Positions 1-17,372 of a stretch of 64,000 nucleotides of DNA are shown here, in pieces. The notes below the pieces were generated by a model, which saw only the letters and a program-made list of their open reading frames with translations, was not told where the DNA came from and did not search any database. The position numbers and the translations under genes were made by a program. Numbering within the stretch: position 1 is the first letter of the stretch; every line of letters begins with the position of its first letter. Origin of the DNA: Acidimicrobiia bacterium (GTDB lineage: Bacteria > Actinomycetota > Acidimicrobiia > Spongiisociales > ZC4RG35); the NCBI GenBank assembly GCA_028284765.1, contig JANQRA010000002.1, positions 491,832 through 555,831 of the forward strand, given 5' to 3'.

Positions 1-1
1 T

Positions 2-1588
2 GCTGCGATCATCGGCCTGGCGGTCGGTGGTGTGATCGGTTTCCTGCTGTGGTCCTTGACAGGACGCAAGCACGACCTGATGCCGAGACTGATGATCGGA
101 CTCTCTCTCGGATGGCTACTAGGAGCGTGGCTGGCAGCTGACTTCGTCCTCAGCCTGGATGACGACGGCAACGTCACCCGGATCGAAGGTGGCGGAACTC
201 AGGTCGAGGCGATCATCGCCGCCGCCGTGCTTGGCCTACTAGTGGGCGCTTGGATCGGATCGGTCCCATTCCCGGAGAAGATCCGGCGGGCCGAAATCAC
301 CGAAGGCAGCCGCAAGTACATCTTCCTGGCTCCTGCCCTTCTGTTCGTCGTCGGCACTTTGGTAATCCCCCTCGCCCGAACCATCTGGCTCGGCTTCCTC
401 ACAGGTACTCCAACCAACCTGGAGTGGACTGGTCTCACCAACTACGGAGACATCTTCACCGACCCGGGCATCATCAACTTCGAAAACTGGACCTCAATGT
501 TCGAGAGTCGCTTGTTCTGGGGCGCAGTTGTCCTACTGATACTGGGCGTATTCCTTGGCCGGTGGATGGGACGGTCGGGCGGCACCGGCCTGGGCACCGG
601 CTTCTATTTCGGCGCAGGCCCCCTGAGCCTCCTGACAGGCGGCGCAGTGTTGATCGGCTTCGCCATCTTCGTTGCGATCAGAGGCACGATCGCCAACAAC
701 CTGTGGTGGATCTTCTCGGTGATCATCTTCTCAGTGTCGGTGGGCCTCGCGGTCGCCGTCCTTGCAGACCGCTCGAAAGGCGAGAACATCGCCAAGTCTC
801 TGATCTTTCTGCCGATGGCGATCAGTTTCGTGGGCGCTTCGGTCATCTGGCGTCTCATGTATGTCGCTCGCCCGCCGGGTGATACTCAGACCGGTGTGTT
901 CAACGCACTTTGGGTCAAGGTCGGCGAGTGGAGCAACTCGACTACGGCCAGCACCATCATCGTGGCAGCCATCGGCCTGGTAGTAGCGGGGCTGCTCTAT
1001 CTAGCTTGGCGGGGTTGGCAAGCAGACTCCAACGCAATCGCTGCCGGATCACTCGCCCTGGTCGTGCCGCTTGCGTGGCTCGCATATCGGTTCTTGGGTC
1101 CGGGTATCGGTGGCTTCACCACTAACTCCGCTGGCGAGGTCGTCGCCAATCCGGTGATCTTCATCCAGACCGCTCCGTGGAACAACTTCTGGATGATGGT
1201 GGTGTTGATCTGGATCCAAACCGGGTTTGCCATGGTCATCTTCTCCGCAGCCATCAAAGCAGTCCCCGAAGAGCTGCTCGAGGCAGCAAGGATCGACGGT
1301 GCCACCGAGTCCCAAACCTTCTGGAGAGTCACCATCCCGCAGATCTTCCCCACCATTGGAGTGGTGGTCACCACTCTCATCGTGACTGTTCTCAAGGTGT
1401 TCGACATTCCAAAGGTCATGACCAACGGCAACTTCGACACTCAGGTGTTGGCCAATGAGATGTGGGAGCGGGCGTTCACCCAGTTCAACTTCGGTTTGGG
1501 CTCGGCCGTAGCGGTCGTCCTCTTCATTGGCGTGCTGCCGGTGATGTTCATCAATATCCGTCGGATGCAGCGGGAGAGACTGGGATGA
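2..1588 (+). CDS. sugar ABC transporter permease, MalF/AglF type (5' end outside window)
   Basis: Membrane permease of a binding-protein-dependent carbohydrate importer. The reading frame is open to the left edge and encodes hydrophobic residues before the first GTG (32), so the gene almost certainly begins upstream. At least 528 residues are visible, with many hydrophobic segments. The C-terminal part carries the EAA loop (EAARIDGA, about nt 1280-1305) that docks on the ATPase. It is longer than a typical 300-residue permease, with extra N-terminal helices and an inserted helix block, as in MalF/AglF proteins. Its TGA overlaps the next ATG (ATGA). The substrate is unknown; alpha-glucosides are one option given GH13 and GH65 genes nearby. 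Confidence 0.88.
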   Translation, partial: AAIIGLAVGGVIGFLLWSLTGRKHDLMPRLMIGLSLGWLLGAWLAADFVLSLDDDGNVTRIEGGGTQVEAIIAAAVLGLLVGAWIGSVPFPEKIRRAEITEGSRKYIFLAPALLFVVGTLVIPLARTIWLGFLTGTPTNLEWTGLTNYGDIFTDPGIINFENWTSMFESRLFWGAVVLLILGVFLGRWMGRSGGTGLGTGFYFGAGPLSLLTGGAVLIGFAIFVAIRGTIANNLWWIFSVIIFSVSVGLAVAVLADRSKGENIAKSLIFLPMAISFVGASVIWRLMYVARPPGDTQTGVFNALWVKVGEWSNSTTASTIIVAAIGLVVAGLLYLAWRGWQADSNAIAAGSLALVVPLAWLAYRFLGPGIGGFTTNSAGEVVANPVIFIQTAPWNNFWMMVVLIWIQTGFAMVIFSAAIKAVPEELLEAARIDGATESQTFWRVTIPQIFPTIGVVVTTLIVTVLKVFDIPKVMTNGNFDTQVLANEMWERAFTQFNFGLGSAVAVVLFIGVLPVMFINIRRMQRERLG

Positions 1589-2568
1589 CAGCCACCCAAG
1601 AGAAACCCACAACGACAGCCACCACAGGGAACGGCAAGCGGCCGCTGGGAAACCGAATCTATGGGTTCCTGCGATCCGTTCCGACGTGGGCGCTCTGGAT
1701 CCTGGTGATCTTGTGGACGATCCCGACCTTCAGCCTCTTCGTGAACTCGTTCCGGGAGCGTGACGCTCAGCGATCGAGCGGCTTCTGGAACGCCTGGCAG
1801 GACAACGCCAACGGTTTCGAGTTCCCGACGCTCAACAACTATCAGGAAGTCCTTTTCCCCGACGTCGGCGCCGGCTTGGGCAATGCCCTACTCAACTCGG
1901 CCTCGATTGCGATCGTCGCCACCATCATCCCAATCGCCATTGCAGCCTTCGCGGCGTACGCCTTTGCCTGGATCGAGTTCAGGGGTCGTGAGTGGATCTT
2001 CATCGCGACAGTCGCCCTGCTCGCGGTCCCGACTCAGGTCTCTCTGATCCCGCTGTTGACGGCCTACTCACAGGGGGTGCACATGACCATCCCCTTTATC
2101 GAACGAACTATCACGCTGATACCTGACGCCAACCTGGCGGGGAGTATCCCTGCCGTGTGGCTGACCCATACCGGTTTCGCCCTGCCGTTCGCGATCTTCC
2201 TGCTGCACAACTACATCGCGGGCCTGCCCAAGGACATATTCGAGTCGGCATACATCGACGGCGCCGACCACTTCAAGATCTTCCGCAAGCTGGTCGTTCC
2301 GCTCTCGATGCCGGTCCTCGCAGCCTTCGCCATCTTCCAGTTCCTCTGGACCTGGAACGACTACCTGATCGCTCTGACCATGATCGGTGGCAACCGCGAG
2401 GCATTACCGGCAACCATCGTCGTGGCTTCGCTGGCCGGTGAGTTCGGTGCGAGGGAGCACTTGCTGACTGCCGGTGCGTTTGTGATAACGATCGTTCCGT
2501 TGATCGTGTTCTTCGCGCTGCAACGGTTCTTCGTGCGAGGTGTAACGGCCGGCTCAGTTAAGGGCTGA
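1585..2568 (+). CDS. sugar ABC transporter permease, MalG/AglG type
   Basis: Second inner-membrane permease of the same importer, 327 residues. The ATG at 1585 overlaps the stop of the upstream permease, which decides the start over the longer open frame that begins inside the neighbour. A short Thr-rich N-terminus is followed by six predicted helices. The EAA loop reads ESAYIDGAD near residue 225, a good match to MalG-type proteins. The solute-binding protein gene is not in the window, and the only candidate ATPase is at 10069. It ends flush against the stop of the opposing gene (TGA then TCA, no spacer). Confidence 0.9.
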   Translation: MTATQEKPTTTATTGNGKRPLGNRIYGFLRSVPTWALWILVILWTIPTFSLFVNSFRERDAQRSSGFWNAWQDNANGFEFPTLNNYQEVLFPDVGAGLGNALLNSASIAIVATIIPIAIAAFAAYAFAWIEFRGREWIFIATVALLAVPTQVSLIPLLTAYSQGVHMTIPFIERTITLIPDANLAGSIPAVWLTHTGFALPFAIFLLHNYIAGLPKDIFESAYIDGADHFKIFRKLVVPLSMPVLAAFAIFQFLWTWNDYLIALTMIGGNREALPATIVVASLAGEFGAREHLLTAGAFVITIVPLIVFFALQRFFVRGVTAGSVKG

Positions 2569-3498
2569 TCACAGCTCGACTGTCGAAGTTCTCAAATCGT
2601 GTGAGCCGTCTGGGTTGGTGTATTCGTAGTACAGATGGGCTTGGTCGCCGACCCGGACCGCTGACACATATCTGACGATCCCGTGCGGAGACTCGACCCA
2701 GGGTTTGCCGTCGTCGAGCCTTTCGAAAGTGACCCCGTCATTGGATAGAGCGAGACCCGCTTTCTCCTCGTAGTTGTCGTAGAAAGTCCGACCTCCATCG
2801 AAGAAGGCCACGTACCCCTCTCCATAAGGGATCATCGAGTTGATTCTTGCCCTCCGGCCGTGCCAGGAGTCGTCGGCAGGAGGTTCGAAGACATATTCGA
2901 CTTCAGGGAAGTAGCTGCCGTCTTCGGAACGAGCCAGAACGGTCGCGTCGAGTGGCGCCGAAGTGATGGTGTTGCCTTCGACGATCGGACCTTGACGCGG
3001 CGGAGCTGCCGCGTACAGCCACCACTCGTCACCAAACCGCATCACGTAGGGGTCCTTGATCCAGCCCAATCCAAAGTCAGATGGCGACAACACGGTCCGC
3101 CGCGACTGTGCCAGAAAAGCAGAGGGGTCATCGGCGACCATGAGGTCGATACGCCAGGTAGACGTTCCGGCGATTTCGTAGGACACGTAGAGCAGCCACT
3201 CGTCGCCGTTCCGGACACAGTGACCCTCTTCAACGGAGTTCGCGGCTAGCTCTTCCTTCGTGGACGCCCACACATCCTCGAAGGAGACTCCGTCTGTGCT
3301 GACCGCAACCCGACACTCCCCTGCCCGACCGGACTCGAGTGGCTGACGGAGCCGATAGAAGAGGACGAACTGGCCTGACAACTCGTCGTGGGAGACCTTG
3401 CCTCCTACCCAGTTGCCGTATCCGTGTCCGGGCGCACGACGAACAACGGTTCCGGATGCGGGATCAAACCTGAGTGAATCGAGTGGACTTTCCATCAC
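2569..3498 (-). CDS. five-bladed beta-propeller glycosidase-like protein (GH43/GH32 superfamily)
   Basis: A 309-residue protein with repeated propeller-like blades, for example a DEWLLYVSYE-type strand, KDPYVMRFGDEWWLY near residue 165 and GVTFERL near the end. These resemble the GH32/43/68 fold, in which acidic residues at the blade starts act in catalysis. No signal peptide is seen, so it is probably cytoplasmic and could act on oligosaccharides or their phosphates taken up by the adjacent transporter. The start is GTG 3498 or ATG 3495. It is transcribed away from the dehydrogenase cassette and converges with the permeases. Family placement is by fold-like pattern only, and the substrate is unknown. 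Confidence 0.65.
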   Translation of the reverse strand: MMESPLDSLRFDPASGTVVRRAPGHGYGNWVGGKVSHDELSGQFVLFYRLRQPLESGRAGECRVAVSTDGVSFEDVWASTKEELAANSVEEGHCVRNGDEWLLYVSYEIAGTSTWRIDLMVADDPSAFLAQSRRTVLSPSDFGLGWIKDPYVMRFGDEWWLYAAAPPRQGPIVEGNTITSAPLDATVLARSEDGSYFPEVEYVFEPPADDSWHGRRARINSMIPYGEGYVAFFDGGRTFYDNYEEKAGLALSNDGVTFERLDDGKPWVESPHGIVRYVSAVRVGDQAHLYYEYTNPDGSHDLRTSTVEL

Positions 3499-3542: not shown

Positions 3543-4472
3543 GTGCCCGCAGTCGTAGTCACCGAGTTCATGTCCGAGGAAGGGGCGCAGACCCTCGTGG
3601 ACGAGTTTGGAGCGCTCTACGACCCAACTCTCGTCGAGGATCGAGCTCGACTCTTGGATGTCGTGGCCGATGCGATCGCCCTGGTGGTGAGAAACCGGAC
3701 GCAGGTCGATCGTGAGCTGCTGGAGTCGGCACCCAATTTGAGAGTTGTGGCGCGTCTGGGTGTGGGGCTGGACAACTTCGACCTGGAGGCCGCCAACGAC
3801 CTCGGGATCGCTGTCGAGCCGGCGACGGGCGCCAACGTGACTTCGGTGACCGAGTACGTGATAGGAGCGGCACTGACTTTGGTCCGTGGAGTCTTTTCTT
3901 CAACCGACCTGATGACCGAAGGCCGCTGGCCACGAACTGAGTTGCGAGGCAACGAGGTGGCCGGCAGAACGCTGGGACTCATTGGCTTCGGCGCCATCGC
4001 TCGTGAGGTGGCCCGAAAGGCAATCGGGCTCGAAATGTCCGTCGTCGCCCACGACCCATTCATCAACGACGACGACCCAGCCTGGGGGTCAGTCAAGCCG
4101 CTTGGTGTTCCGGAGCTCCTGGGGACGGCAGATGTCGTATCGATTCATGTGCCCCTCACGAACGAGACTCGACACCTGATCGGAGCATCTGAGATCGCAG
4201 CGATGAAGAAAGGGGCAATCGTCATCAACACCTCACGAGGAGGAATCGTGGACGAAGACGCTCTCGTAGCAGCCCTTCGGGCCAATCAACTCGGAGGCGC
4301 TGCCCTCGACGTATTCGAAGAGGAGCCTCTCACCAGCGCCTCAGCGTCCCGGTTCGCTGAGGTGCCCAACCTCATCCTCAGCCCACATGTGGCGGGGGTG
4401 ACCAACGAATCAGAAGCCCGGACCGGTGACATGACTGTCGAAACGGTTCGCCGACATCTGGAAAGTAGATGA
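3543..4472 (+). CDS. D-isomer-specific 2-hydroxyacid dehydrogenase
   Basis: NAD(P)-dependent oxidoreductase of the D-2-hydroxyacid dehydrogenase family (309 residues, usual length 310-330). It interconverts a 2-hydroxy acid and a 2-keto acid. The Rossmann motif is GLIGFGAIA near residue 145. The catalytic Arg is in NTSRGGIVDE near 232, the Glu in DVFEEEP near 260 and the His in LSPHVAGVT near 282, so the active site looks intact. It is the first gene of a cassette in which every junction to the isomerase gene is an ATGA overlap. Such an enzyme could handle a three-carbon acid derived from the aldolase product; phosphoglycerate, glycerate or sulfolactate type substrates cannot be told apart here. 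Confidence 0.88.
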   Translation: MPAVVVTEFMSEEGAQTLVDEFGALYDPTLVEDRARLLDVVADAIALVVRNRTQVDRELLESAPNLRVVARLGVGLDNFDLEAANDLGIAVEPATGANVTSVTEYVIGAALTLVRGVFSSTDLMTEGRWPRTELRGNEVAGRTLGLIGFGAIAREVARKAIGLEMSVVAHDPFINDDDPAWGSVKPLGVPELLGTADVVSIHVPLTNETRHLIGASEIAAMKKGAIVINTSRGGIVDEDALVAALRANQLGGAALDVFEEEPLTSASASRFAEVPNLILSPHVAGVTNESEARTGDMTVETVRRHLESR

Positions 4473-5365
4473 CAAACGTCATCTGCATAGGCCTTGCCGT
4501 ATCGGACCTGATCTATTCGGTGTCCGAGCTGCCTGACGGTGAAGGCAAGACTCACGCCCATTCGCTCAGCCAGACCGGTGGTGGCCCAGCGGCAACGGCA
4601 GCGGTCGCTGTCTCAAGATTGGGTGGCAAGGCCAAGCTCATCGCTCCGATCGGCGACGACCTGGTCGGCGATGCGATCGTGAAGGAACTGCGCGAGGAGA
4701 ACGTCGATGTAGGCGGCATTCGGCGTCTTCCAGGAGTCTCGTCGCCGCAGTCGAGTATCACGGTTGACGATGTCGGATCGAGAATGATCGTCAACTACTC
4801 CGACGCTCGCCTGTTCCGTGAAGCGGCCGTACCGGACCGACAGGAACTCGAGTCCGCAGACTCGGTGTTGGTCGATGTGCGCTGGCCGGAAGGAGCAGCC
4901 GCGGCGCTGCGGTGGGCGTCTGGGCGTGGAGTTCCCGCGATCGTCGACTTCGACGCCGGATTCGACCAACCCGATGACCTACTCGCACATGCCTCACACA
5001 TCGTCTTTGCCGAGAACGCCCTGGTCAGACTCACCAGTGAAGCCGACCCGCGAGCAGCCCTCCTTTCCGCAAGACGACGAACCGATGCCTTCCTCGGCGT
5101 CACACTTGGGGACCAAGGCTGCCTTTGGTTGGACAACGGGGACGTAGAGCACCTCGCTGCATTCGACGTTGACGTGATCGACACAACGGGAGCCGGCGAT
5201 GTCTTCCACGGTGCGTTTGCATGGGCGATGGCATCAGGCAACGACGAAGCGACGTCGATGAGAATCGCCTCTGCTGCAGCTGCCCTATCGTGCGGTGGTA
5301 GCGGCGGTCGGGCAGGAATCCCGAGTGGCCTCGAGTTGAGTCGGTTTCTGGAGGCCAACACATGA
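4469..5365 (+). CDS. PfkB-family sugar kinase
   Basis: Ribokinase/PfkB-type carbohydrate kinase, 298 residues. The N-terminal signature GGGPAATAA near residue 32 and the C-terminal DTTGAGDVFHG near residue 237, which holds the catalytic Asp and anion hole, are both present. Its position between a dehydrogenase and a LacD-type aldolase suggests it phosphorylates a ketose so that the aldolase can split it. This is the order seen in tagatose-6-phosphate and sulfofructose pathways. The ATG overlaps the preceding stop by ATGA. Substrate identity is inferred only in general terms. Confidence 0.88.
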   Translation: MTNVICIGLAVSDLIYSVSELPDGEGKTHAHSLSQTGGGPAATAAVAVSRLGGKAKLIAPIGDDLVGDAIVKELREENVDVGGIRRLPGVSSPQSSITVDDVGSRMIVNYSDARLFREAAVPDRQELESADSVLVDVRWPEGAAAALRWASGRGVPAIVDFDAGFDQPDDLLAHASHIVFAENALVRLTSEADPRAALLSARRRTDAFLGVTLGDQGCLWLDNGDVEHLAAFDVDVIDTTGAGDVFHGAFAWAMASGNDEATSMRIASAAAALSCGGSGGRAGIPSGLELSRFLEANT

Positions 5366-6396
5366 CGATGACGCCGGGCAAGTTTCAAGGCCTACGTCGT
5401 ATTGCCGACGCTAATGGGCGCTTCAAGATGGTGGCGGTCGACCAACGTCCCCCGATCGAGGCCCTCGTCGCCGACGCTGGTGTCGCACCCGAAGGCCTCG
5501 AGTTGGGTGTGGCCGACATCAAGAAGTCGCTGATCAGAAACCTGGCTCCCAGTGCCTCGGCAATCCTCATGGATCCGCAATATGTCTTCCCGGAAGCCCT
5601 GGGGATGGTGCCTCATGACAAGGGCCTTCTCATCACCTTGGAGTACGACAAGTTCGAGGAGACCCCCACAGGACGCATTTCTTCCTCGATTCCCGATTGG
5701 ACCGTCGCAAAGATCAAGGCTGCGGGCGGTGATGCGGTGAAAGTCCTTGCCTGGTATCGGCCCGACGCATCTCCAGATGTGTTGGACCACCAGAAGCAAT
5801 ACGTGTCCGCCATAGGTGACGAGTGCATGCGCAACGACATACCGTTTGTGTTCGAGTTGCTCGTCTATCCGCTTCCTTCTGAGTCAGGGCACACCGTTGA
5901 TTACGTCGAAAGCCCGACGAAGAAGACCGAGCACGTCATCGAGAGCGTTGAAACCTTCGCCCACAAGAAATACGGTGTCGACCTCTTCAAGCTCGAGTCG
6001 CCGGTTCCAGCCTCGGCGCTGGGAGACGACGGCTCGCAGGAAGCATTCGACCATCTCGGGCAGGCGGCAGGAAGACCCTGGGTGATGTTGTCGGCGGGAG
6101 CCAGTCCCGAGAGCTTCACGACGATCCTCGAGCATGCTTACAGGTCCGGAGCAAGTGGATACCTGGCGGGACGAGCGATCTGGTGGGACGAATGCAAGGC
6201 CTGCTACCCCGACCTGCAGAGGATGGACGCCTCTCTGGCTGACACCTCGGTTGCCTATATGGCCTCACTCAACGAGCTCACCGACGCGAGTGCCACACCG
6301 TGGATGGCGCATTCGGTTTTTGGAGGTTCGGGACCAGTTCTCGATAGAGCCGGGTCCGCTTTTCGCAGCAGTTATCAGTCGGGAACAAGCGGATGA
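5362..6396 (+). CDS. LacD-type class I aldolase (tagatose-bisphosphate aldolase family)
   Basis: 344-residue TIM-barrel aldolase resembling LacD and YihT. The N-terminal VDQRPP near residue 28 matches the family DQR motif. The Schiff-base lysine is most likely K210 in DLFKLESPV, and the SAGAS near 238 with SGYLAGRA near 260 fit the phosphate-binding end of the barrel. It would cleave a phosphorylated ketose to dihydroxyacetone phosphate plus an aldehyde. The start overlaps the kinase stop by ATGA and its stop overlaps the isomerase start the same way, so translation is likely coupled. Whether the sugar is a plain ketohexose, a deoxy sugar or a sulfonated sugar cannot be read from sequence. 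Confidence 0.82.
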   Translation: MTMTPGKFQGLRRIADANGRFKMVAVDQRPPIEALVADAGVAPEGLELGVADIKKSLIRNLAPSASAILMDPQYVFPEALGMVPHDKGLLITLEYDKFEETPTGRISSSIPDWTVAKIKAAGGDAVKVLAWYRPDASPDVLDHQKQYVSAIGDECMRNDIPFVFELLVYPLPSESGHTVDYVESPTKKTEHVIESVETFAHKKYGVDLFKLESPVPASALGDDGSQEAFDHLGQAAGRPWVMLSAGASPESFTTILEHAYRSGASGYLAGRAIWWDECKACYPDLQRMDASLADTSVAYMASLNELTDASATPWMAHSVFGGSGPVLDRAGSAFRSSYQSGTSG

Positions 6397-7751
6397 AGAA
6401 GCTTGGTTTCCTGGCAATCGGACGACCGACGTTCGATGTCGAGTTTGCAGAAGAACAAACCCGTACGGCCTTGGCCAATCTCTCCTCGTCTGCCGCCGTC
6501 GTCGGAGTTCCAGCACTGTTGATGGACACCGACGCCGGGCGCGAAGCAGCCAGAGCCCTCGCCAACGAGGACTGCGATTCGGTCGTGGTCTTTCAGGCGA
6601 CATTCGCCGACTCGACCCTGGTCGCGGCGATTGGCGAGGAGGTCACTTCGCCGTTGATCCTGTGGGCAATTCCCGAAACAAGGTCCGGGGGACGACTCCG
6701 TCTCAATTCCCTTTGCGGCATCAATCTCGCCGGCTACTACTTGACGCGCGCCGGAGTCGACTACGCATGGGTCTACGGCCCGGCAGACGACTCGTCTGTC
6801 CTCGACAAGACTGTCCGAAAGGGAAGCTCTCGAGCAAGCCATCCTCAGCCCGTACCGGCCCGACCGACCGAAAACGCTCCACAGCTGGCGACCATGAAGA
6901 TCGGCGTCCTCGGCACGAGGCCGGACGGGTTCGAGCCCTGCGACTTCGAGACCTCCGAACTGAGCGAGAGGTTTGGAGTGGGGGTTGACCAACTCGAACT
7001 GTCCGATTGGTTCTCAGCATCGGAAACGGCGACGGACAGCGCTGTCGATCAGATCCGTCTGGAGACGACTGCGGCGATGACCGGGGTTGAAGACGTCGAC
7101 CAACACGAGTTGGGCCGCAGTCTCCGTCTCTACACCGGTCTGTCCGAGCTCGCCGACCAACGAGGTTGGTCTGGCCTCGCAACCCGATGTTGGCCGGAGT
7201 GTTTCACTGAATACGGCGGCGCGGCCTGCGCCGGCAACTCAATGATGACCAGCAGCGGCATCCCAGGGACCTGCGAAGCTGACGTGTACGGGACATTGAC
7301 TGCCCTGCTGCTTCGCGAGTTATCCGATGACCCGCCTTTCGTAGCGGATCTGATCGACATCGACCCCACCACAAACACAGCGGTCTTTTGGCATTGCGGC
7401 CAGGCGCCGCGCGAGCTGGCAGGTTCTCCACCCAAGGCCGCTCTTCACTCGAATCGAAAGAAACCGCTACTCAACGAGTTCGCTCTCAAGCCCGGCGTCA
7501 TCACGCTGACCCGAATTTCCCAGTCGAACAACACGTTGAGCCTCGTCGTCGGGAGGGCAGAGATGCTGGATGCACCGTTGCCGTTCTCGGGCACTGCAGG
7601 AGTTGCCCGGCTCGAGTCCGATGTTCGAGTTTCACTAGACACGATCATGGAGAACGGCCTCGAACACCACTACGGCATCGGGTACGGCGATCATCTGGAA
7701 AGACTGCTCGACTTTGCAGCCCATCACGACCTCCCGGTGACGAGACTGTGA
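6393..7751 (+). CDS. L-fucose/L-arabinose isomerase-family protein
   Basis: 452-residue protein of the FucI/AraA superfamily, which interconverts aldoses and ketoses with a divalent metal. The C-terminal half has the recognisable metal-site features: WPECFTEYGG near residue 268, CEADVYG near 291 and HCGQAPRE near 331. It is shorter than true L-fucose isomerase (about 590 residues), so it belongs to a shorter, functionally varied branch. In the cassette it would supply the ketose for the kinase and aldolase. The stretch around residues 135-165 is proline- and arginine-rich and looks like a surface linker between the N-terminal and central domains. The exact aldose is unknown. Confidence 0.75.
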   Translation: MKKLGFLAIGRPTFDVEFAEEQTRTALANLSSSAAVVGVPALLMDTDAGREAARALANEDCDSVVVFQATFADSTLVAAIGEEVTSPLILWAIPETRSGGRLRLNSLCGINLAGYYLTRAGVDYAWVYGPADDSSVLDKTVRKGSSRASHPQPVPARPTENAPQLATMKIGVLGTRPDGFEPCDFETSELSERFGVGVDQLELSDWFSASETATDSAVDQIRLETTAAMTGVEDVDQHELGRSLRLYTGLSELADQRGWSGLATRCWPECFTEYGGAACAGNSMMTSSGIPGTCEADVYGTLTALLLRELSDDPPFVADLIDIDPTTNTAVFWHCGQAPRELAGSPPKAALHSNRKKPLLNEFALKPGVITLTRISQSNNTLSLVVGRAEMLDAPLPFSGTAGVARLESDVRVSLDTIMENGLEHHYGIGYGDHLERLLDFAAHHDLPVTRL

Positions 7752-7758
7752 CGTCCTC

Positions 7759-8820
7759 ATGAAGACAATCAGATACGGAGTCATCGGCACCGGAGCCATG
7801 GGACGCGAACACATCGGAAACATCCTTGCCCTGCCCGGCGCCGAGGTTGTGGCGCTTTCCGACCCAAACGAGTGGTCGTTGCGCACCGCCCAAGAGATGG
7901 CGGACCTTCCCGACGAGGCGTGCCATCTCGATGACGATCCGTTGATCGAGGACGACTCGATCGATGCATTGGTCGTTGCGACGCCGAATCACACCCACGC
8001 CCACGTCATGGTCGACGCTATGGCGTCGAACGCACACATTCTCATCGAGAAACCGCTGGGCCGGACCGTCGCCGAGTGTGATCGGATAATCGAAGAAGCT
8101 GCCAAGCGTGAGCCCATCGTTTGGATGGGTCTCGAGTATCGGTACATGCCCCCGATAACGCGGCTCATCGAAGAGGTGCGCAATGGCATTGTCGGGAAGC
8201 CGGAGATGGTCGCAATCAGAGAGCACCGGTACCCGTTCCTTCCCAAGGTCGAGAATTGGAACCGATTCAGCGTGAACACCGGCGGCACCCTGGTGGAGAA
8301 GTGCTGCCATTTCTTCGACCTCATGAATCAGATCATCAACGGAAAGCCCCAGCGTGTGTACGCCACCGGGAGCCAGGCCGTCAACCACCTCGACGAGGAG
8401 TATGACGGGAAGGTCCCAGACATTATCGACAACGCCTATGTGATCGTCGACTACGACAACGGAACCAGGGCCATGCTCGACCTCTGCATGTTTGCTGAGG
8501 CTTCAAAAAACGAGCAGGAGATCGCGGTGACCGGCGCCCTCGGGAAGATCGAGGCTTTCGTCCCAGAGCACATGACTCGCATCGGGTTGCGTTCGACTGG
8601 GTCGATCGAAGAGCTAGAAGTCCGAAACCCCGACATCGAGTTCGAGGGCCATCATTGGGGGTCGAGCTACCTCGAGCACGTTGACTTCGTCGAGGCCATC
8701 AGGACCGGTGGAAGCCCGAAAGTGACCCTGGAGGAGGGACGGATGGCGGTGGCCATCGGAGTCGCGGGTCACAAATCGATCGACGAAGGGCGACCGGTGA
8801 TGATGGACGAGGTGCTTTAG
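7759..8820 (+). CDS. Gfo/Idh/MocA-family oxidoreductase
   Basis: NAD(P)-dependent sugar or inositol dehydrogenase family, 353 residues. The N-terminal Rossmann motif is GVIGTGAMGREH near residue 6, the conserved EKPLGRT is near residue 93, and the following alpha/beta domain includes CCHFFDLMN (near residue 180), which holds the usual catalytic His region. It lies 7 nt downstream of the isomerase gene and is the last gene of the cassette. It may oxidise the free sugar or act at an anomeric or ring carbon before isomerisation. Its stop is followed directly by the stop of the opposing DUF4032 gene. Confidence 0.88.
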   Translation: MKTIRYGVIGTGAMGREHIGNILALPGAEVVALSDPNEWSLRTAQEMADLPDEACHLDDDPLIEDDSIDALVVATPNHTHAHVMVDAMASNAHILIEKPLGRTVAECDRIIEEAAKREPIVWMGLEYRYMPPITRLIEEVRNGIVGKPEMVAIREHRYPFLPKVENWNRFSVNTGGTLVEKCCHFFDLMNQIINGKPQRVYATGSQAVNHLDEEYDGKVPDIIDNAYVIVDYDNGTRAMLDLCMFAEASKNEQEIAVTGALGKIEAFVPEHMTRIGLRSTGSIEELEVRNPDIEFEGHHWGSSYLEHVDFVEAIRTGGSPKVTLEEGRMAVAIGVAGHKSIDEGRPVMMDEVL

Positions 8821-10047
8821 CTAGTCGAGTTCGGCGATCGCAAACGCGTCGGGCGGGATACCGGGACCCCCATCACTCAACCATTTAGCGAACGCCTCTT
8901 CGTTCTCCATGTCCTGAGAGCGTTCTTCGGCCATCCTCAGCCGATGGTGGAGAAAGTCACAGAATCGTTGGATCGGATCCTCGTCCGGCCACTCAGCAGC
9001 GATCAACTCGATATAGGGCTCAAAGCCCTCTTTGAGCCAATCGATGGCTGCCAGCACCCTGCCGGTCGCGGTGTGAGTCCCGTGTTTCGCCTGGTAGTAC
9101 GACAGGTCGTTGAGAAGCACACGAGCCTGGGTCTCCGAAGCTTCAAGGCCCGTGAGTTGGCGAAGACGATCGGCGTGGTAGGTCCGACCCGCTACCGAGA
9201 CCTTCATCTTCACCAGCCGGCCATCGCCAGCTGGCTCCAGGCTGAAGTCGTCGACCACGAACCCCAAGGACTGCAGGACATCCAGCCTCTGCCTGATGAG
9301 ATACGTCTCATCTTTCCCGACGACAAGGTCTTCGGTCAGCTCATCCCATAGGGCGTGGTACCGAGCAGCGATGTCCTCACCAAGGGCCAGGTCGGCGTGA
9401 TCTAGATCAGCCTCGATCTCCGCGGCAATGTCTGCCATCTCACCGGCAACGTTCTCGATCATTATCTGAAGATCCTGGAGACGCTGCCCGGTGCTCAGCT
9501 CCTCTTTCAGCATGGAAGTCTCGCCGTCGATCATGATCGCCTCGATCAGACCGGCGTCCCACCGATACAGCAGATTCGAAAGCGAGCAATCGCCCCAGTA
9601 GAGCCCCACGAGATGCAGCTCTACCAACAAGCTGGCCACCGAGTCGAGCATGTGGTCGCGGCGTTGTCCGAACCCGAGCCCGTGGACGAGCCGTCGGTAC
9701 GGGAAGGAGTGACGGACGTATCTCGTGATCACGACCCCAGCCTGCTCACTGTGTGGGTCAAGCCAAGGCCGTGTGAGCCAACCAGCCGGGCTGGCTGCGC
9801 GGTGGGTCCGATCTTCAAGCAGCCTGAGGACCTCGAACTCGCTCTTGGCGATGCGCAACGGCAGTTCCTTGATTGCAAACACTCCCTCGTCGTATGCGAC
9901 GAAGACCACCGGATGACGGTGGATGCCGGTTGGCATGTCGACCAGGCGTTCATGGGTCCAGTCGTTGATGGGTGTGTCCCACGGGAGGTCGAGGAAATCG
10001 GGGTTTCCTGGACGGATAACGAGCTTCGGTGTTCCCATGCCGCCCAT
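8821..10047 (-). CDS. kinase-fold protein with C-terminal DUF4032
   Basis: 408-residue cytoplasmic protein typical of actinobacteria. The N-terminal part resembles LPS-core/Kdo kinase-like proteins: a lysine in FAIKELPL near residue 55, a catalytic-loop-like GDCSLSNLL near 153 and IDGET near 172 in the place of a DFG motif. The region after about residue 220 matches DUF4032. The family has no established substrate. The start is ATG 10047 or the internal ATG 10038. It diverges from the ATPase gene with only 21 bp between starts, so the two may share regulation. Acidic replacements in the motifs suggest an atypical kinase or a pseudokinase. Confidence 0.75.
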   Translation of the reverse strand: MGGMGTPKLVIRPGNPDFLDLPWDTPINDWTHERLVDMPTGIHRHPVVFVAYDEGVFAIKELPLRIAKSEFEVLRLLEDRTHRAASPAGWLTRPWLDPHSEQAGVVITRYVRHSFPYRRLVHGLGFGQRRDHMLDSVASLLVELHLVGLYWGDCSLSNLLYRWDAGLIEAIMIDGETSMLKEELSTGQRLQDLQIMIENVAGEMADIAAEIEADLDHADLALGEDIAARYHALWDELTEDLVVGKDETYLIRQRLDVLQSLGFVVDDFSLEPAGDGRLVKMKVSVAGRTYHADRLRQLTGLEASETQARVLLNDLSYYQAKHGTHTATGRVLAAIDWLKEGFEPYIELIAAEWPDEDPIQRFCDFLHHRLRMAEERSQDMENEEAFAKWLSDGGPGIPPDAFAIAELD

Positions 10048-10068: not shown

Positions 10069-11103
10069 GTGAATCTTCTTCTCGATTCGGTCTCCAAGAA
10101 CTACTCCGGCACCTGGGCGATACGCGACCTGTCGGTCCGTGTGGATGATGGCGAGTCACTTGTTCTGTTGGGCCCGAGCGGCAGTGGCAAGACGACGGTC
10201 CTGAGGTTGGTCGCCGGACTCGAGGAACCCTCGGCGGGAGACATCTTGTTCGACGGGCGACCCCCTTCCGACGAGGAGCCAAGGGACGTCACCATGCTCT
10301 TTGCAGAGAACCGTCTCTTCCCGAAGATGACCGCCCGCCAGAACATCGGATTCCCACTCTCAGTTCGCGGGGTGCCCGAACCTGAGAGGACCGACCGGGT
10401 CGAAGCAGAGGCCGCTACCCACGGCATTGAGCGCCTCCTCGACAAGTTGCCACGATCTCTATCGGCAGGTCAGGCCAACATCGTTCACCTGGCCAAAGCC
10501 ATGGTGCGAGCCCCGGGACTATTCCTGATAGATGAGCCGATGAAGGATCTCGATCCACCTACGAGGCGAGCACTCCGGACCGAACTACGAGCCCTACAGA
10601 GGGGCTACGGGGCGACCGCAATGTATGCCACCAACGATCAAGAAGACGCCATGGTCCTGGCAGACCGGATCCTCGTGATCGAAAAAGGGACAACGGCCCA
10701 GGTCGGAACACTCGACGACATATATCAGCGCCCGGCGAGCCGATTCGTCGCGACATTTGTGGGGACTCCCGAAATGGGCGTCGTTCAAGGACTTTGGGAG
10801 AAGGGAGCTGTTCGTGTCGGCGATCTGTACCTAACGGTCCCGGGCAGCGCGAAGCGTTCAGATGTCCTGGTTGGGGTCCGAGCTCATCACGTGGTGGAGA
10901 GAAGCTCTGGCTATCGGGTCAAGGTGGACTCAGTCGACCGACTCGGTCCTGACACTTACCTCCATCTCATAGGCCCCGAGGGGAGCCTTGTCATGAGAAG
11001 CGAGACATCCGCCGCAGTCGGATCACACATCGAGGTCGACTTCAAAAGATTTCACCTCTTTGACCCCGAGTCTGGCGTCACCCTTCACCACAGCACTGGC
11101 TAG
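10069..11103 (+). CDS. MalK/UgpC-type ABC transporter ATPase with altered Q-loop and H-loop
   Basis: 344-residue ATP-binding subunit for carbohydrate import. Walker A is GPSGSGKT near residue 36, Walker B is LFLIDEP near 155, the signature is LSAGQ, and a C-terminal TOBE-like domain follows residue 235. Two catalytic positions differ from the family: the Q-loop reads MLFAENRLFP (Ala for Gln) and the H-loop reads YATNDQEDA (Asn for His). Start GTG 10069 was chosen because the domain begins there; the open frame extends upstream only as antisense of the DUF4032 gene. It may energise the permeases at the left edge, or pair with a second canonical ATPase not in the window. Confidence 0.85.
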   Translation: MNLLLDSVSKNYSGTWAIRDLSVRVDDGESLVLLGPSGSGKTTVLRLVAGLEEPSAGDILFDGRPPSDEEPRDVTMLFAENRLFPKMTARQNIGFPLSVRGVPEPERTDRVEAEAATHGIERLLDKLPRSLSAGQANIVHLAKAMVRAPGLFLIDEPMKDLDPPTRRALRTELRALQRGYGATAMYATNDQEDAMVLADRILVIEKGTTAQVGTLDDIYQRPASRFVATFVGTPEMGVVQGLWEKGAVRVGDLYLTVPGSAKRSDVLVGVRAHHVVERSSGYRVKVDSVDRLGPDTYLHLIGPEGSLVMRSETSAAVGSHIEVDFKRFHLFDPESGVTLHHSTG

Positions 11104-12233
11104 CGGTAGCTCTCCCCCGCTCCAGTGTTCCAGAGCAGCACCCGGTCTCCGTCGCTGATCGTGCCGTTTTCACGCAGAAGCTCGTTTGCCCTCCACACAG
11201 CACCGCCTTCAGGGCAGAAGTCGATACCGGTCTGTTCTGATGCCTGAAGCGCTGCGGCGTGCAGCTCGTCCTCAGCTATCCCTATAGCCGAGCCTCCAGT
11301 CTCAGCGATCGCCCGCAAACACAGAAACCCGCCGATGGGAGAAGGGACACGCAAGCCCCAAGCAGCGGTCATTGGGTTCGGCCAAGCCTCGATGTCGTCG
11401 TCTCCCTGCTCGTAAGCCTTCACAATCGGCGCACAGCCTGCGGCCTGTACCGAGACCATCCTGGGCCGATGGGAGTCGATCCATCCGAGTCGTTCCATCT
11501 CGTCAAACGCCTTCCACATGCCCACCAAACCGGTGCCTCCACCTGTCGGGTAGAGAATCACCTCGGGCATATCACCATTGAACTGCTCGAAGACTTCGTA
11601 GCCCATGGTCTTCTTGCCCTCGACCCGGTAGGGCTCTTTCAGCGTGGACACATCGAAGTCCAAGGCGCCCCGATTTGCCGCAAGGTGCTTGCCGGCCACG
11701 GAGATATCTCCATCGACGAGGGCAACGTCGGCGCCGAATTCCCGACACCGATCAATGATCGCTTGAGGTGTGTCCTGCGGCATCGCCACCAGGACCGGAA
11801 CCCCTGCCTCCCTGCCATACGCGGAGAGAGCAACCGCCGCGTTTCCAGCGCTCGGTGCGACCAATCGCTCGGCCCCAAGTGCCACGGCAGCTGAGACTGC
11901 CATGCTCATGCCGCGATCCTTGAACGAGCCGGTGGGATTGACCGACTCGTCCTTGACGAAGACCCCGTTCCCGAGATCGTGAAGCGGAGTCCATCCTTCG
12001 CCAAGCGACACCCGACTGTCGAACGGCACGGCTTCCACGGCTGAATACCTCCACATGGAGTCGACGGATGTATCGATTGCCTCGTCGGGCGACATCTGAG
12101 CAAACCCGGGAGAAACCCGAAGTGGCATTCCACATTCGGCGCAGACCGTCTGAAGTTGGGCCGGGTCATGGGAGCTTTCACACCTGAAACAGGTCAGGCG
12201 CGTGCTACTCCGAAGATCTGAGGCTGATGACAT
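11100..12233 (-). CDS. threonine synthase-type PLP enzyme
   Basis: 377-residue fold-type II PLP enzyme. An N-terminal zinc-ribbon-like segment (CFRC near residue 15, CAEC near 31) precedes the catalytic domain, as in many threonine synthases. The PLP lysine lies in NPTGSFKDRG near residue 105 and the phosphate loop is PTGGGTG near 220. The expected reaction is O-phospho-L-homoserine to L-threonine, but related threonine dehydratase or cysteate synthase activities cannot be excluded. The ATG at 12233 was preferred to an upstream TTG (12260). Its TAG shares the same CTAG with the stop of the opposing ATPase gene. Confidence 0.82.
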   Translation of the reverse strand: MSSASDLRSSTRLTCFRCESSHDPAQLQTVCAECGMPLRVSPGFAQMSPDEAIDTSVDSMWRYSAVEAVPFDSRVSLGEGWTPLHDLGNGVFVKDESVNPTGSFKDRGMSMAVSAAVALGAERLVAPSAGNAAVALSAYGREAGVPVLVAMPQDTPQAIIDRCREFGADVALVDGDISVAGKHLAANRGALDFDVSTLKEPYRVEGKKTMGYEVFEQFNGDMPEVILYPTGGGTGLVGMWKAFDEMERLGWIDSHRPRMVSVQAAGCAPIVKAYEQGDDDIEAWPNPMTAAWGLRVPSPIGGFLCLRAIAETGGSAIGIAEDELHAAALQASEQTGIDFCPEGGAVWRANELLRENGTISDGDRVLLWNTGAGESYR

Positions 12234-12294
12234 CGGCGGGAGATTAGGAGGGACGCCCAACCGAACCGAACCCGACGCCGGATAGATCTCGGCG

Positions 12295-12332
12295 TTGCAC
12301 AGACCACGTTGAATTGGGGTTAGCCTCGCATG
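12295..12332 (+). promoter_or_regulatory. putative promoter of the molybdoenzyme operon
   Basis: TTGCAC at 12295-12300 and TAGCCT at 12321-12326. The hexamer lies 6 nt before a GTG (12333) that opens a short leader ORF, the same spacing seen at other leaderless-type starts in this window. Confidence 0.4.
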
Positions 12333-12359
12333 GTGACCAGGACCGCAAGCCTTTGGTGA
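12333..12359 (+). CDS. possible 8-codon leader peptide coupled to the iron-sulfur subunit gene
   Basis: GTG 12333 (or ATG 12330, same frame) opens MTRTASLW and ends with TGA 12357-12359. That stop overlaps the GTG (12356) that best starts the next gene. There is no Shine-Dalgarno for the main gene, so termination on this leader could deliver ribosomes to it. This rests on position only. Confidence 0.3.
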   Translation: MTRTASLW

Positions 12360-13951
12360 GATACGGCTTCGTTATCGATCAGGATGTCTGTATCGGATGC
12401 CACGCCTGCACCGTGGCATGCAAGACCGAGCACGACGTTCCTCTCGGCGTCAACCGGACCTGGGTCAAGTACATCGAGAAGGGGGCTTGGCCCGACACCA
12501 AGCGCTTCTTTTCCGTCCTGCGCTGCAACCACTGCACGGATGCACCCTGTGTGACGATCTGTCCGACACAGGCCCTCTACAAGCGGGGCGACGGAATTGT
12601 CGATTTCGACACCAATCGTTGCATCGGCTGCAAGTCATGTATGCAGGCCTGTCCCTACGACGCCCTCTATATCGATCCAACTGAGAACACGGCGCAGAAG
12701 TGCAACTACTGCGCACATCGAACGGACATCGGATTGGAGCCGGCCTGTGCGATTGTGTGCCCCGAGGAGGCGATCATCGCTGGGGACCTCGACGACCCAA
12801 TGTCACAGATCGCCAGAATGGTCGCCACGGAAAGCCTCTCGGTCCGCGCACCCGAACAGGGAACAGGGCCGAATGTGTTCTACAAAGGTGCCGACTCCGC
12901 CTCCCTCGACCCGGCCAGCTCCGGACGTTTGGAAGACTCCGGTGTTTGGCGTGATGGGCCGGGCACCTCAGACTCATGGCTATCCGTCGATCTCACGCCG
13001 TCTACAAACGGCCAAATCGGCAATCTGGGAACAGATGTCGGTGCACCGTCACCGCCAGTCGAACCATCGTCGGACTCGGGCGCTAAGCCCCGGGTCGTTT
13101 ACAACAGCGACCACCCGATGCCGTGGGGTTGGAAGGTGTCCAGCTACTTCCTGACCAAAGGCATCGCTGCCGGCATCGCAATCGCTTCAGCCGTTGCGCT
13201 GGCCGTCGGAATCGACACCGATTCGGCCTGGATGGCATGGGCAGCACCTCTCGTTGCAGGGCTCTTCATCCTCCTGACAGGGGTTCTCCTGGTCTGGGAC
13301 CTCAAACGACCCGACCGATTCCTGTACATCCTCACCAAGTCCAACAACTCGTCATGGCTGGTTCGGGGTGCGTGGATCCTGGGTCTACAGGCCGCCCTCA
13401 TGGCGGCGTGGTTCCTCATGGGCTTCTTCGAAGTCGGAGGATTGGAAGTCGTCATCTGGCTTTCTGCGTTGAACGGATTGGCCGTTGCTGGATACACCGC
13501 ATTCCTCTTCGGCCAGGCGGAAGGCCGCGACCTCTGGCAGACCCCACTGCTCGTGTGGCACATGATTGGTGGTGCACTCGCCGTCGGCGGAGGCGTGTCT
13601 TTGTTGGCAACGCTGGGGGCCCAACAGGTCGAGGAGTTCCGGAGCCCCTTCATGTGGGTCATGCTCATTGGAGCGGTCATCGTGGGCTTGATGACGTTGA
13701 CTGAAATGCTCAGCACCCATCCCACAACCAATGCCGAGACTGCCTTCCATCACATGACTGCCGGGCGATATGCACGCGAGTGGTGGACCGGTCAGCTGTT
13801 GGTCGTAGTCGTGCCCGTCCTTGCAGCCGTCCTCGTCCTCACAGGGACGTCAGTAGCGATCGGTGCCCTCGGCGCTGTCGCGGCAATGGTCGGCGTGTTC
13901 CTCGCAGACGATGCATTCGTGAGGGCTGGGCAAAGCGCCCCGCTGAGTTGA
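12356..13951 (+). CDS. 4Fe-4S electron-transfer subunit fused to NrfD/PsrC-type membrane anchor
   Basis: 531-residue fusion of two subunits that are usually separate in complex iron-sulfur molybdoenzymes. Residues 1-160 hold sixteen cysteines in four clusters (CIGCHACTVAC, CNHCTDAPCVTIC, CIGCKSCMQAC, and CNYC with CAIVC), enough for four 4Fe-4S centres as in PsrB/DmsB. A Ser/Pro-rich linker of about 80 residues follows, then an NrfD-type domain with about eight helices from residue 258 to the end. It would pass electrons between the catalytic subunit and the quinone pool. No signal sequence is present. GTG 12356 was chosen because the domain starts there; TTG 12314 is possible. Confidence 0.85.
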   Translation: MRYGFVIDQDVCIGCHACTVACKTEHDVPLGVNRTWVKYIEKGAWPDTKRFFSVLRCNHCTDAPCVTICPTQALYKRGDGIVDFDTNRCIGCKSCMQACPYDALYIDPTENTAQKCNYCAHRTDIGLEPACAIVCPEEAIIAGDLDDPMSQIARMVATESLSVRAPEQGTGPNVFYKGADSASLDPASSGRLEDSGVWRDGPGTSDSWLSVDLTPSTNGQIGNLGTDVGAPSPPVEPSSDSGAKPRVVYNSDHPMPWGWKVSSYFLTKGIAAGIAIASAVALAVGIDTDSAWMAWAAPLVAGLFILLTGVLLVWDLKRPDRFLYILTKSNNSSWLVRGAWILGLQAALMAAWFLMGFFEVGGLEVVIWLSALNGLAVAGYTAFLFGQAEGRDLWQTPLLVWHMIGGALAVGGGVSLLATLGAQQVEEFRSPFMWVMLIGAVIVGLMTLTEMLSTHPTTNAETAFHHMTAGRYAREWWTGQLLVVVVPVLAAVLVLTGTSVAIGALGAVAAMVGVFLADDAFVRAGQSAPLS

Positions 13952-13963
13952 GCAGGAGAAGCC

Positions 13964-16684: not shown

Positions 16685-17372
16685 GGTAGCGCGAACCGAG
16701 GCACATCGATGGCTCGACCTCGCAGGGAACTGGATGGCTGAACGGGCTCGGGACATATGGGAGTTGCGGCCGCCGACCGAAAAACACGTGGTCGTCTTCT
16801 TCGACCCACGAGCCGATCTGCAGAAGAGAACAGAACGATGGAGTCATGATCTGACCGGGTTGGACCTCTCCTCGCTCGCGTTGTTCGCCGCCGGCCTGGC
16901 CGAAGCCGAATCCGTGGGTTGGGCTTCCGACGCGAGGGACGTAGCGACGAGGGCCTATGAGGACCGGCGTTTTCTACTCTCCGACCGCGTGCTGCATTGG
17001 GCGGTCCCCTGGTTGGGGGCCGTGGAACGGGAATTCCGGACTCACCAGGACACCGCACGCACCGACCGAGAATTCATGCTTCAACTCGCCGAGGAGATGC
17101 GGCTCGCTCCCGAGATCGAAGGCACCGAAGGCCTGATCTTGGACGGACACGACTCCCTGGGGCCTACGGCGGCTCACTCGAACCTGGATCTCTGGACCAG
17201 TTCACTGTGGTCGGGCGACCTGGTGCTCAATGAGCATCGGAGCCCTGTCGAGAGATACGAGGAAGCCGCCGAGCGCTGGGATGCCATGGCATCGACATAT
17301 CCGGGATCGGCTCAGCTGTGGCGAGACCTGAGCCGGAGAGCTGTCGGCACGGTCGCCCTCGTCAGGGTCTGA
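16668..17372 (+). CDS. small protein of the molybdoenzyme operon, possibly a TorD-like chaperone
   Basis: 234 residues, rich in Ala, Glu, Arg and Trp, predicted all-helical. The ATG lies 17 nt inside the 3' end of the catalytic-subunit gene, so the two are translationally coupled. The segment FLLSDRVLHWAVPWLGAVE near residue 100 recalls the DH..WL helix of TorD/DmsD chaperones, which insert cofactor into molybdoenzymes. The overall match is weak and I do not claim membership. Context and size favour a dedicated maturation factor. Confidence 0.65.
   Translation: MPTASEVARTEAHRWLDLAGNWMAERARDIWELRPPTEKHVVVFFDPRADLQKRTERWSHDLTGLDLSSLALFAAGLAEAESVGWASDARDVATRAYEDRRFLLSDRVLHWAVPWLGAVEREFRTHQDTARTDREFMLQLAEEMRLAPEIEGTEGLILDGHDSLGPTAAHSNLDLWTSSLWSGDLVLNEHRSPVERYEEAAERWDAMASTYPGSAQLWRDLSRRAVGTVALVRV

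Follow-up and report, generated by a model that had tools for sequence, protein, structure and literature searches.

A putative hybrid sulfoglycolytic operon with a candidate sulfopyruvate branch in an Acidimicrobiia genome

Introduction

Sulfoquinovose (SQ) is the sugar of plant sulfolipids, and most of the sulfoglycolytic bacteria described so far end at a C2 or C3 sulfonate, leaving cleavage of the C-S bond to others. Here, we analyze a five-gene operon and its surroundings in a stretch of 64,000 nucleotides (the window; contig JANQRA010000002.1, positions 491,832 to 555,831) from an Acidimicrobiia bacterium, whose genome spans 2.9 Mb in 23 contigs and is 98% complete.

Published work places SQ among the largest organic sulfur pools, at about 10 billion tons a year (PMC10755693). 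It describes hybrid pathways of Actinobacteria that combine a class I aldolase, a YihV-type kinase and an SqvD-type isomerase (PMC10599462; PMC9594981), which our operon fits, and it places the (S)-sulfolactate dehydrogenase SlcC in or beside the SERA subfamily, with 3-phosphoglycerate not a substrate (PMC6303947). GH188, SqvD, hybrid clusters of the sulfoglycolytic Embden-Meyerhof-Parnas type (sulfo-EMP) and their pairing with a D-3-phosphoglycerate-type dehydrogenase are already published. New, as far as our literature searches go, are the exact combination of genes, the reading of the dehydrogenase as a sulfopyruvate branch with three alternative sinks, and a pyridoxal phosphate (PLP)-dependent candidate for one of them. 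Our analysis suggests that the operon is very probably a hybrid sulfo-EMP operon degrading SQ and its glycosides, in which the dehydrogenase would give sulfopyruvate.

Results

The operon comprises five plus-strand open reading frames (ORFs; Table 1), with ATGA overlaps at 4469, 5362 and 6393 and a 7-nt gap ahead of the last gene, and inspection of the sequence found all of this just as an earlier, sequence-only reading had described it. The family calls of that reading stand for four of the proteins, which exceed the Pfam cut-offs for 2-Hacid_dh, PfkB (PF00294), DeoC/LacD (PF01791) and GFO_IDH_MocA; the fifth, the isomerase, is weak in Pfam (Fucose_iso_C, 21.5 bits, below the cut-off of 29.3), but its AlphaFold model has the AraA/FucI fold. 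The five-gene arrangement is not chance, since many genomes carry these genes in the same order, and the isomerase (E <= 1e-40) is present in 25 of the 138 genomes of the order and in 15 of its 61 genera. This emerged from the gene-neighborhood comparison that the sequence-only reading had proposed: the order dehydrogenase-kinase-aldolase-isomerase was seen again in seven loci (L045, L048, L049, L059, L071, L175 and L179; L, G and C numbers are ours for loci, genomes and contigs), and in L193 as far as its contig reaches.

The sugar, left unassigned on first reading, is proposed to be SQ because the kinase, isomerase and hydrolase each have SQ-specific relatives. The best PDB match of the kinase is, over its full length, the sulfofructose kinase YihV (7ag6, E 8.3e-66; best named ribokinase, 9e-27), and K27, N109 and R138, the sulfonate ligands of YihV, are identical in the alignment. 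The sole NCBIfam match of the isomerase is NF048012, sulfoquinovose isomerase (SftI), at 276 bits with an equivalog cut-off of 700. Its model (predicted local distance difference test, pLDDT, 92.6) gives VIA Z values of 34 to L-arabinose isomerase and 30.9 to E. coli FucI, and E269, E295, D297 and H334 are invariant in 15 of 15 aligned sequences, whose members are 29 to 55% identical to the window's isomerase; residues in the RCWPE, CEAD and WHCG motifs are read as putative metal ligands. The aldolase scores above the cut-off of NF009498, and matches PDB 8tnf (E 4.4e-91), LacD (2e-40) and YihT (3.4e-20); no paper explaining the function of 8tnf turned up in our literature search.

The last protein of the operon is read as a GH188 hydrolase, SqgA, at the pathway entry, rather than as the oxidoreductase of a C3 product that its Gfo/Idh/MocA family had suggested. 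Its best PDB matches are 8qc3 (E 7.5e-90), 8qc2 (6e-89) and 8zn9 (5.4e-86), the next other entry standing at 5.9e-41; roles as a C3 or inositol dehydrogenase were rejected on account of the far stronger GH188 match. In an alignment read by hand and numbered after SqgA (PMC10755693), the protein retains K107, Y136, R166, L170, K172, E189, H193 and H321, and with them the sulfonate triad R166/L170/K172 (R/L/K), the Leu at L170 standing against a Tyr in the Y160/Y158 variants (PMC11465081). The sequence-only logic of isomerization, phosphorylation, cleavage and C3 redox chemistry still fits, with the D-2-hydroxyacid dehydrogenase as the C3 enzyme.

Drawing on gene order, homology, the isomerase fold, conserved active-site residues and genomic association, we infer every substrate and activity of the following route, together with the sulfopyruvate sink of this organism. 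An ABC importer encoded upstream would take up SQ and SQ glycosides, and SqgA would free SQ through transient oxidation at C3 with NAD+. The SqvD-type isomerase would convert SQ to 6-deoxy-6-sulfofructose, which the YihV-type kinase would phosphorylate and the class I aldolase cleave to dihydroxyacetone phosphate and sulfolactaldehyde (SLA). SLA would then be oxidized to (S)-sulfolactate, the enzyme probably being an aldehyde dehydrogenase whose gene lies elsewhere. From sulfolactate, the SlcC-like enzyme would yield sulfopyruvate, a branch point to C-S cleavage. Within the operon, to which this comparison was confined, the kinase of the yih-type sulfo-EMP pathway occurs with a class I PF01791 aldolase, and an SqvD-type gene stands in place of YihS; PF00294 and PF01791 are found instead of the SqiK (PF00365) and SqiA (PF01116) of sulfo-EMP2. 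The sequence-only reading had matched these genes to no standard named set, and a match to a complete characterized pathway, which would have refuted it, is only partial: known enzyme families cover each step as far as SLA, but together the genes form a hybrid with an open end.

The dehydrogenase is read as the C3 enzyme of the pathway, with a putative activity from sulfolactate to sulfopyruvate. Its top NCBIfam score is to phosphoglycerate dehydrogenase (TIGR01327, 277 bits, cut-off 454). In a phylogenetic tree that left out the SlcC of Chromohalobacter itself, it falls into one clade (100/99) with dehydrogenases of SQ loci adjoining SuyAB, ComDE or a PLP enzyme of the PRK08197 'threonine synthase' family (PALP). 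Among these clade neighbors, SuyA, SuyB and ComC accompany the dehydrogenase in L057, L062, L184 and L188, and sulfopyruvate decarboxylase (ComDE) in L064 and L077. Six paralogues were found in the window's genome, all six outside this clade, and the gene was rejected as the only SerA of the genome.

To ask what surrounds this gene elsewhere, we examined 54 loci outside the window (41 from one genome scan, 11 more from the order and two from plasmids) by tblastn with fixed thresholds. A sulfopyruvate sink (SuyB, ComDE or PALP) was present in 23 of 29 loci with the dehydrogenase, versus 1 of 25 without; the single exception, L074, begins inside its isomerase gene. When the isomerases were grouped at 70% identity, the counts became 12 of 15 groups versus 0 of 16, these groups being still related to each other, such that Fisher values serve as a guide only. 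When only loci with 4 kb or more on each side of the isomerase were counted, a sink occurred in 16 of 17 that have the dehydrogenase and in 0 of 14 that lack it; at 8.5 kb the counts were 8 of 8 and 0 of 10. Both ComDE subunits were found with the dehydrogenase in all eight of eight near-identical alphaproteobacterial loci, and those of L064 exceed their cut-offs (224.2 vs 221.5 and 160.3 vs 147.95 bits). PALP accompanies the dehydrogenase in L045, L049, L059, L071, L076, L175, L179, L185, L189 and L198, assigned by a family scan in L045, L049, L071 and L198 and by tblastn in the remainder; the two ORFs overlap by 4 nt in L071 and L076 and lie 1 nt apart in L045. A contig without the isomerase, L132, carries the order PALP-dehydrogenase-kinase. 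PALP and SuyB occur together in none of the 54 loci, and ComC is found only alongside SuyB, in all but one of the 6 SuyB loci, and that one is truncated. These data point to the dehydrogenase travelling with sulfopyruvate-consuming genes and marking a sulfopyruvate branch.

The clearest sign of one sink replacing another comes from L184 and L189, which suggests a new sulfite-releasing branch. Their dehydrogenases are sisters (100/99), and both operons run dehydrogenase, FSA-type transaldolase, isomerase, type II glyceraldehyde-3-phosphate dehydrogenase (GAPDH) homologue and sulfoquinovosidase, ending in SuyA-SuyB-ComC in L184 and in PALP in L189. The PRK08197-like enzyme of L189 (6430-7635) stands in place of the SuyA-SuyB-ComC of L184 and L188 within one genus (G435, G438 and G441). 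A PALP that stood in for SuyAB only would leave a need for ComC to form (R)-sulfolactate. Because ComC is absent as well and the dehydrogenase is retained, sulfopyruvate should be the starting point of PALP; and since such PLP enzymes need an amino group, cysteate from a transaminase is its likely substrate. We thus propose, tentatively and as somewhat less probable than not, that the PALP of SQ operons is a new C-S lyase: sulfopyruvate would be transaminated to L-cysteate and sulfite eliminated to leave pyruvate and ammonia, replacing SuyAB and making ComC needless, and the window's own PALP and molybdoenzyme might do the same. The matches of PALP proteins to archaeal cysteate synthase are weak (54-77 bits, cut-off 325; PDB 9k3c, E 3.7e-7), and those to known threonine synthases are better (PDB 2zsj, E 8.1e-46). 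Two observations speak against a C-S lyase. In L104, L105 and L107, members of this PALP clade are found away from SQ operons, on which grounds an exclusive SQ role of the clade was rejected (L108 lies at a contig end), and the PALP of L189 sits on a long branch in a different lineage. In literature that leaves out most subscription papers, none was found joining sulfoquinovose, cysteate and threonine synthase; there, sulfoquinovose with threonine synthase, and with Acidimicrobiia, gave only matches unrelated by title.

Two loci carry PALP in other settings. An SQ-type cluster on a plasmid of Candidatus Chlorohelix allophototropha (L198; NZ_CP128401.1, 67350-86684) is annotated with nitrite/sulfite reductase, siroheme synthesis, pyrophosphate-type phosphofructokinase, phosphoglycerate dehydrogenase, threonine synthase and SSADH-type genes, a content that hints at sulfite formation. 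Nitrite reductase models are the best matches of its reductase, its Gfo/Idh/MocA protein is 24% identical to the window's, and its dehydrogenase lies on a long branch outside the SQ-locus clade. In L140 (6768-11600), which comes from G320, a member of the window's family that gave no isomerase match, a YeiH-type exporter, PALP, an aldehyde dehydrogenase and an SlcC-like dehydrogenase (52%) stand in a row with no SQ genes, forming a possible sulfonate module.

Searches of the window's own genome gave no SuyB (PF04295; the same search was positive in 5 of 14 control genomes), no Xsc over its cut-off and no YeiH sulfite exporter. L085 was rejected as Xsc at 352 bits versus a cut-off of 676, its neighboring ORF being ilvC-like by eye, and the single Ldh_2 protein (C10) was rejected as ComC at 30% identity, next to an ORF that by eye resembles dihydrodipicolinate synthase. 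The aldehyde dehydrogenase nearest to the L057 SQ-locus enzyme lies at C12:94341 (57%), other full-length ones reaching at most 34%; distant from the operon, it is the strongest candidate for an SLA dehydrogenase here.

Upstream of the operon, the transporter of the first permease also stands beside SQ operons in L044, L047, L049, L050, L053, L184, L188 and others, and copies of the second, 74-85% identical, do so in L044, L047, L049, L050, L053 and L184; this recurrence supports an importer role. Further upstream genes in L002, of the same genome, were assigned by eye to a GH1 and a ROK protein. The minus-strand protein between transporter and operon has relatives of 59-63% identity in L049, L053, L132 and L175, beside the SQ transporter or operon. 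Its model is a five-bladed propeller (pLDDT 86) whose top PDB matches are GH130 mannoside phosphorylases (TM about 0.6), a GH130/GH43-like fold for which SQ glycosides are possible substrates. The operon is followed directly, on the minus strand, by a DUF4032 protein (8821-10047) with a 40% identical relative in L071.

Table 1. Features in and around the putative SQ operon (window coordinates unless marked L002)
Position	Strand	Feature	Basis
1..1588	+	ABC permease, cut by window edge	BPD_transp_1; complete in L002:15432-17420 (C5, same genome)
1582..2568	+	Second ABC permease of proposed SQ/SQ-glycerol importer	BPD_transp_1
2569..3498	-	Propeller protein, putative accessory	No Pfam/NCBIfam match; between transporter and operon
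3543..4472	+	SlcC-like D-2-hydroxyacid dehydrogenase (SerA clade), proposed (S)-sulfolactate dehydrogenase giving sulfopyruvate	Pfam/NCBIfam, tree
4469..5365	+	PfkB-family kinase, proposed 6-deoxy-6-sulfofructose kinase (YihV type)	PDB 7ag6
5362..6396	+	Class I DeoC/LacD aldolase, proposed sulfofructose-1-phosphate aldolase	NF009498, PDB matches
6393..7751	+	Putative SqvD/SftI-type sulfoquinovose isomerase (AraA/FucI fold)	NF048012 match, conserved residues, fold
7759..8820	+	GH188 NAD-dependent sulfoquinovosidase (SqgA), as read	Best PDB matches 8qc3/8qc2/8zn9, sulfonate triad kept
10069..11103	+	Sugar-type ABC ATPase, candidate to energize importer	By eye from ORF and sequence
11100..12260	-	PLP enzyme PALPw, PRK08197 'threonine synthase' family, candidate for sulfopyruvate/cysteate branch	430 bits, cut-off 303
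12314-17372	+	FeS-NrfD fusion, 906-aa molybdopterin oxidoreductase, possible chaperone	No Tat signal seen by eye
L002:13758-15374		Solute-binding protein upstream	Named by eye; same genome
L002:12457-13686		ABC ATPase	Named by eye; same genome

The survey also revealed a second operon type in the order, in which an FSA-type transaldolase replaces kinase and aldolase, mostly together with a type II GAPDH homologue. The transaldolase has 220 aa (L047:8464-9126; also L050, L055, L056, L184, L185, L188 and L189), and the archaeal-like GAPDH homologue lies between isomerase and sulfoquinovosidase (L047:10560-11576; L050, L055, L056, L074, L184, L188 and L189). Because SLA resembles glyceraldehyde-3-phosphate, this homologue is a candidate for a new kind of SLA dehydrogenase. 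Outside the order, plasmid pZZM402 of Zymomonas mobilis (L197; NC_013785.1) carries an apparent sulfo-EMP2 cluster comprising a class II aldolase, an aldose epimerase, an SqvD-like isomerase (39%), an SqgA-like protein (43%), SSADH, and major facilitator superfamily and TonB transporters.

Discussion

Several observations weigh against an operon that degrades SQ as far as sulfopyruvate. The isomerase falls well short of its equivalog cut-off, and YihT is a more distant match of the aldolase than LacD or 8tnf. Neither the operon nor its immediate flanks encode an aldehyde dehydrogenase, and the one at C12:94341 adjoins polA, named by eye, in what looks like a housekeeping setting. L048, with over 6 kb flanking each side, has the dehydrogenase and no sink, and L044, L047, L050, L056 and L193 have the dehydrogenase without a sink, with less than 4 kb on one side. 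The LacD-like aldolase, in a set of family names that would not by themselves fix the sugar, could be taken to mean that the same logic serves another sulfosugar, such as sulfofucose or sulforhamnose, or a non-sulfonated sugar, and PfkB/DeoC pairs do occur in a sulfofucose cluster (PMC12421959). We consider this very improbable, given three independent proteins whose best or only relatives are SQ enzymes and a retained GH188 sulfonate triad; the published sulfofucose route, moreover, resembles the Entner-Doudoroff (ED) pathway and shows, in the accessible text, no such isomerase activity (PMC12421959). It is somewhat easier to imagine, and still quite unlikely, that the dehydrogenase serves serine synthesis as a SerA copy, or acts as a reductase on SLA or some other C3 product, with sulfolactate or 2,3-dihydroxypropanesulfonate exported. 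Its best score to TIGR01327 would fit, as would a genome in which we found no SuyB, no Xsc over its cut-off and no close ComC. Against it, the clade of this dehydrogenase goes with sulfopyruvate-consuming genes and excludes every paralogue found in its own genome, and no such dehydrogenase is present in the plasmid cluster of Zymomonas, which carries an SSADH-type gene and is expected to end at sulfolactate.

If the SQ operon does lead to sulfopyruvate, the sink in this genome could be PALPw acting after transamination to cysteate, with the sulfite oxidized by the adjacent molybdoenzyme. Since the genome has an E. coli-type ThrC at another site, PALPw is an extra gene and was rejected as the only threonine synthase. 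The molybdoenzyme has a 60% identical relative beside DsrE-like and TusA genes on Rhodococcus pRHL3, and a 76% identical one in G382 (L131), which likewise has a PALP nearby. PALPw nonetheless lies on the opposite strand, 2.3 kb downstream of the operon, and in the tree it occupies a different clade from the PALPs of SQ operons. No SQ operon is seen with its closest relatives (L097-L101; stretches L133-L138): two have a 35-36% identical dehydrogenase 2 kb away and one a 28% identical permease, and nothing more. We regard this sink as unlikely; PALPw and the molybdoenzyme form a lead rather than a result, and the sink is unproven.

Should the SlcC-like gene mark a sulfopyruvate branch and the PLP enzyme provide a third way of releasing sulfite, the actinobacteria concerned, most of them uncultured, would be able to recycle the sulfur of SQ on their own, and complete mineralization of SQ would be possible within one organism.

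Among described systems, the GH188 Y160/Y158 clusters of Actinobacteria (Backlund and Higgins 2024, PMC11465081) share with our operon GH188, a fucose-isomerase-family protein, a sulfofructose (SF) kinase, a D-3-phosphoglycerate-type dehydrogenase and an ABC transporter, and in Y160 also a sulfofructose phosphate (SFP) aldolase. The window differs in its Leu in place of Tyr, in having no SLA dehydrogenase in the operon, and in a genome without SuyB, where those clusters are marked by SuyA/SuyB genes. The sulfo-EMP pathway of Arthrobacter sp. AK01 with SqgA (PMC10755693) likewise has a GH188 sulfoquinovosidase, SF kinase and SFP aldolase, but its isomerase is of the YihS type, its SLA dehydrogenase is encoded locally and its excreted product is sulfolactate, whereas the window has an SqvD-type isomerase and the SlcC-like gene. 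Sulfo-EMP2 of Bacillus urumqiensis (PMC9594981) resembles the proposed route in its SqvD isomerase and intermediates; here the kinase is of PfkB type and not SqiK, the aldolase is class I and not SqiA, and GH188 replaces YihQ. Finally, the SlcC/ComC-SuyAB tandem route of Paracoccus wurundjeri (PMC12421959) and Chromohalobacter also places an SlcC-type dehydrogenase after a sulfosugar pathway within one organism. It differs in its sugar, sulfofucose, and its ED-like entry, and the window's genome has a single 30% identical Ldh_2 protein in place of a close ComC, and no SuyB.

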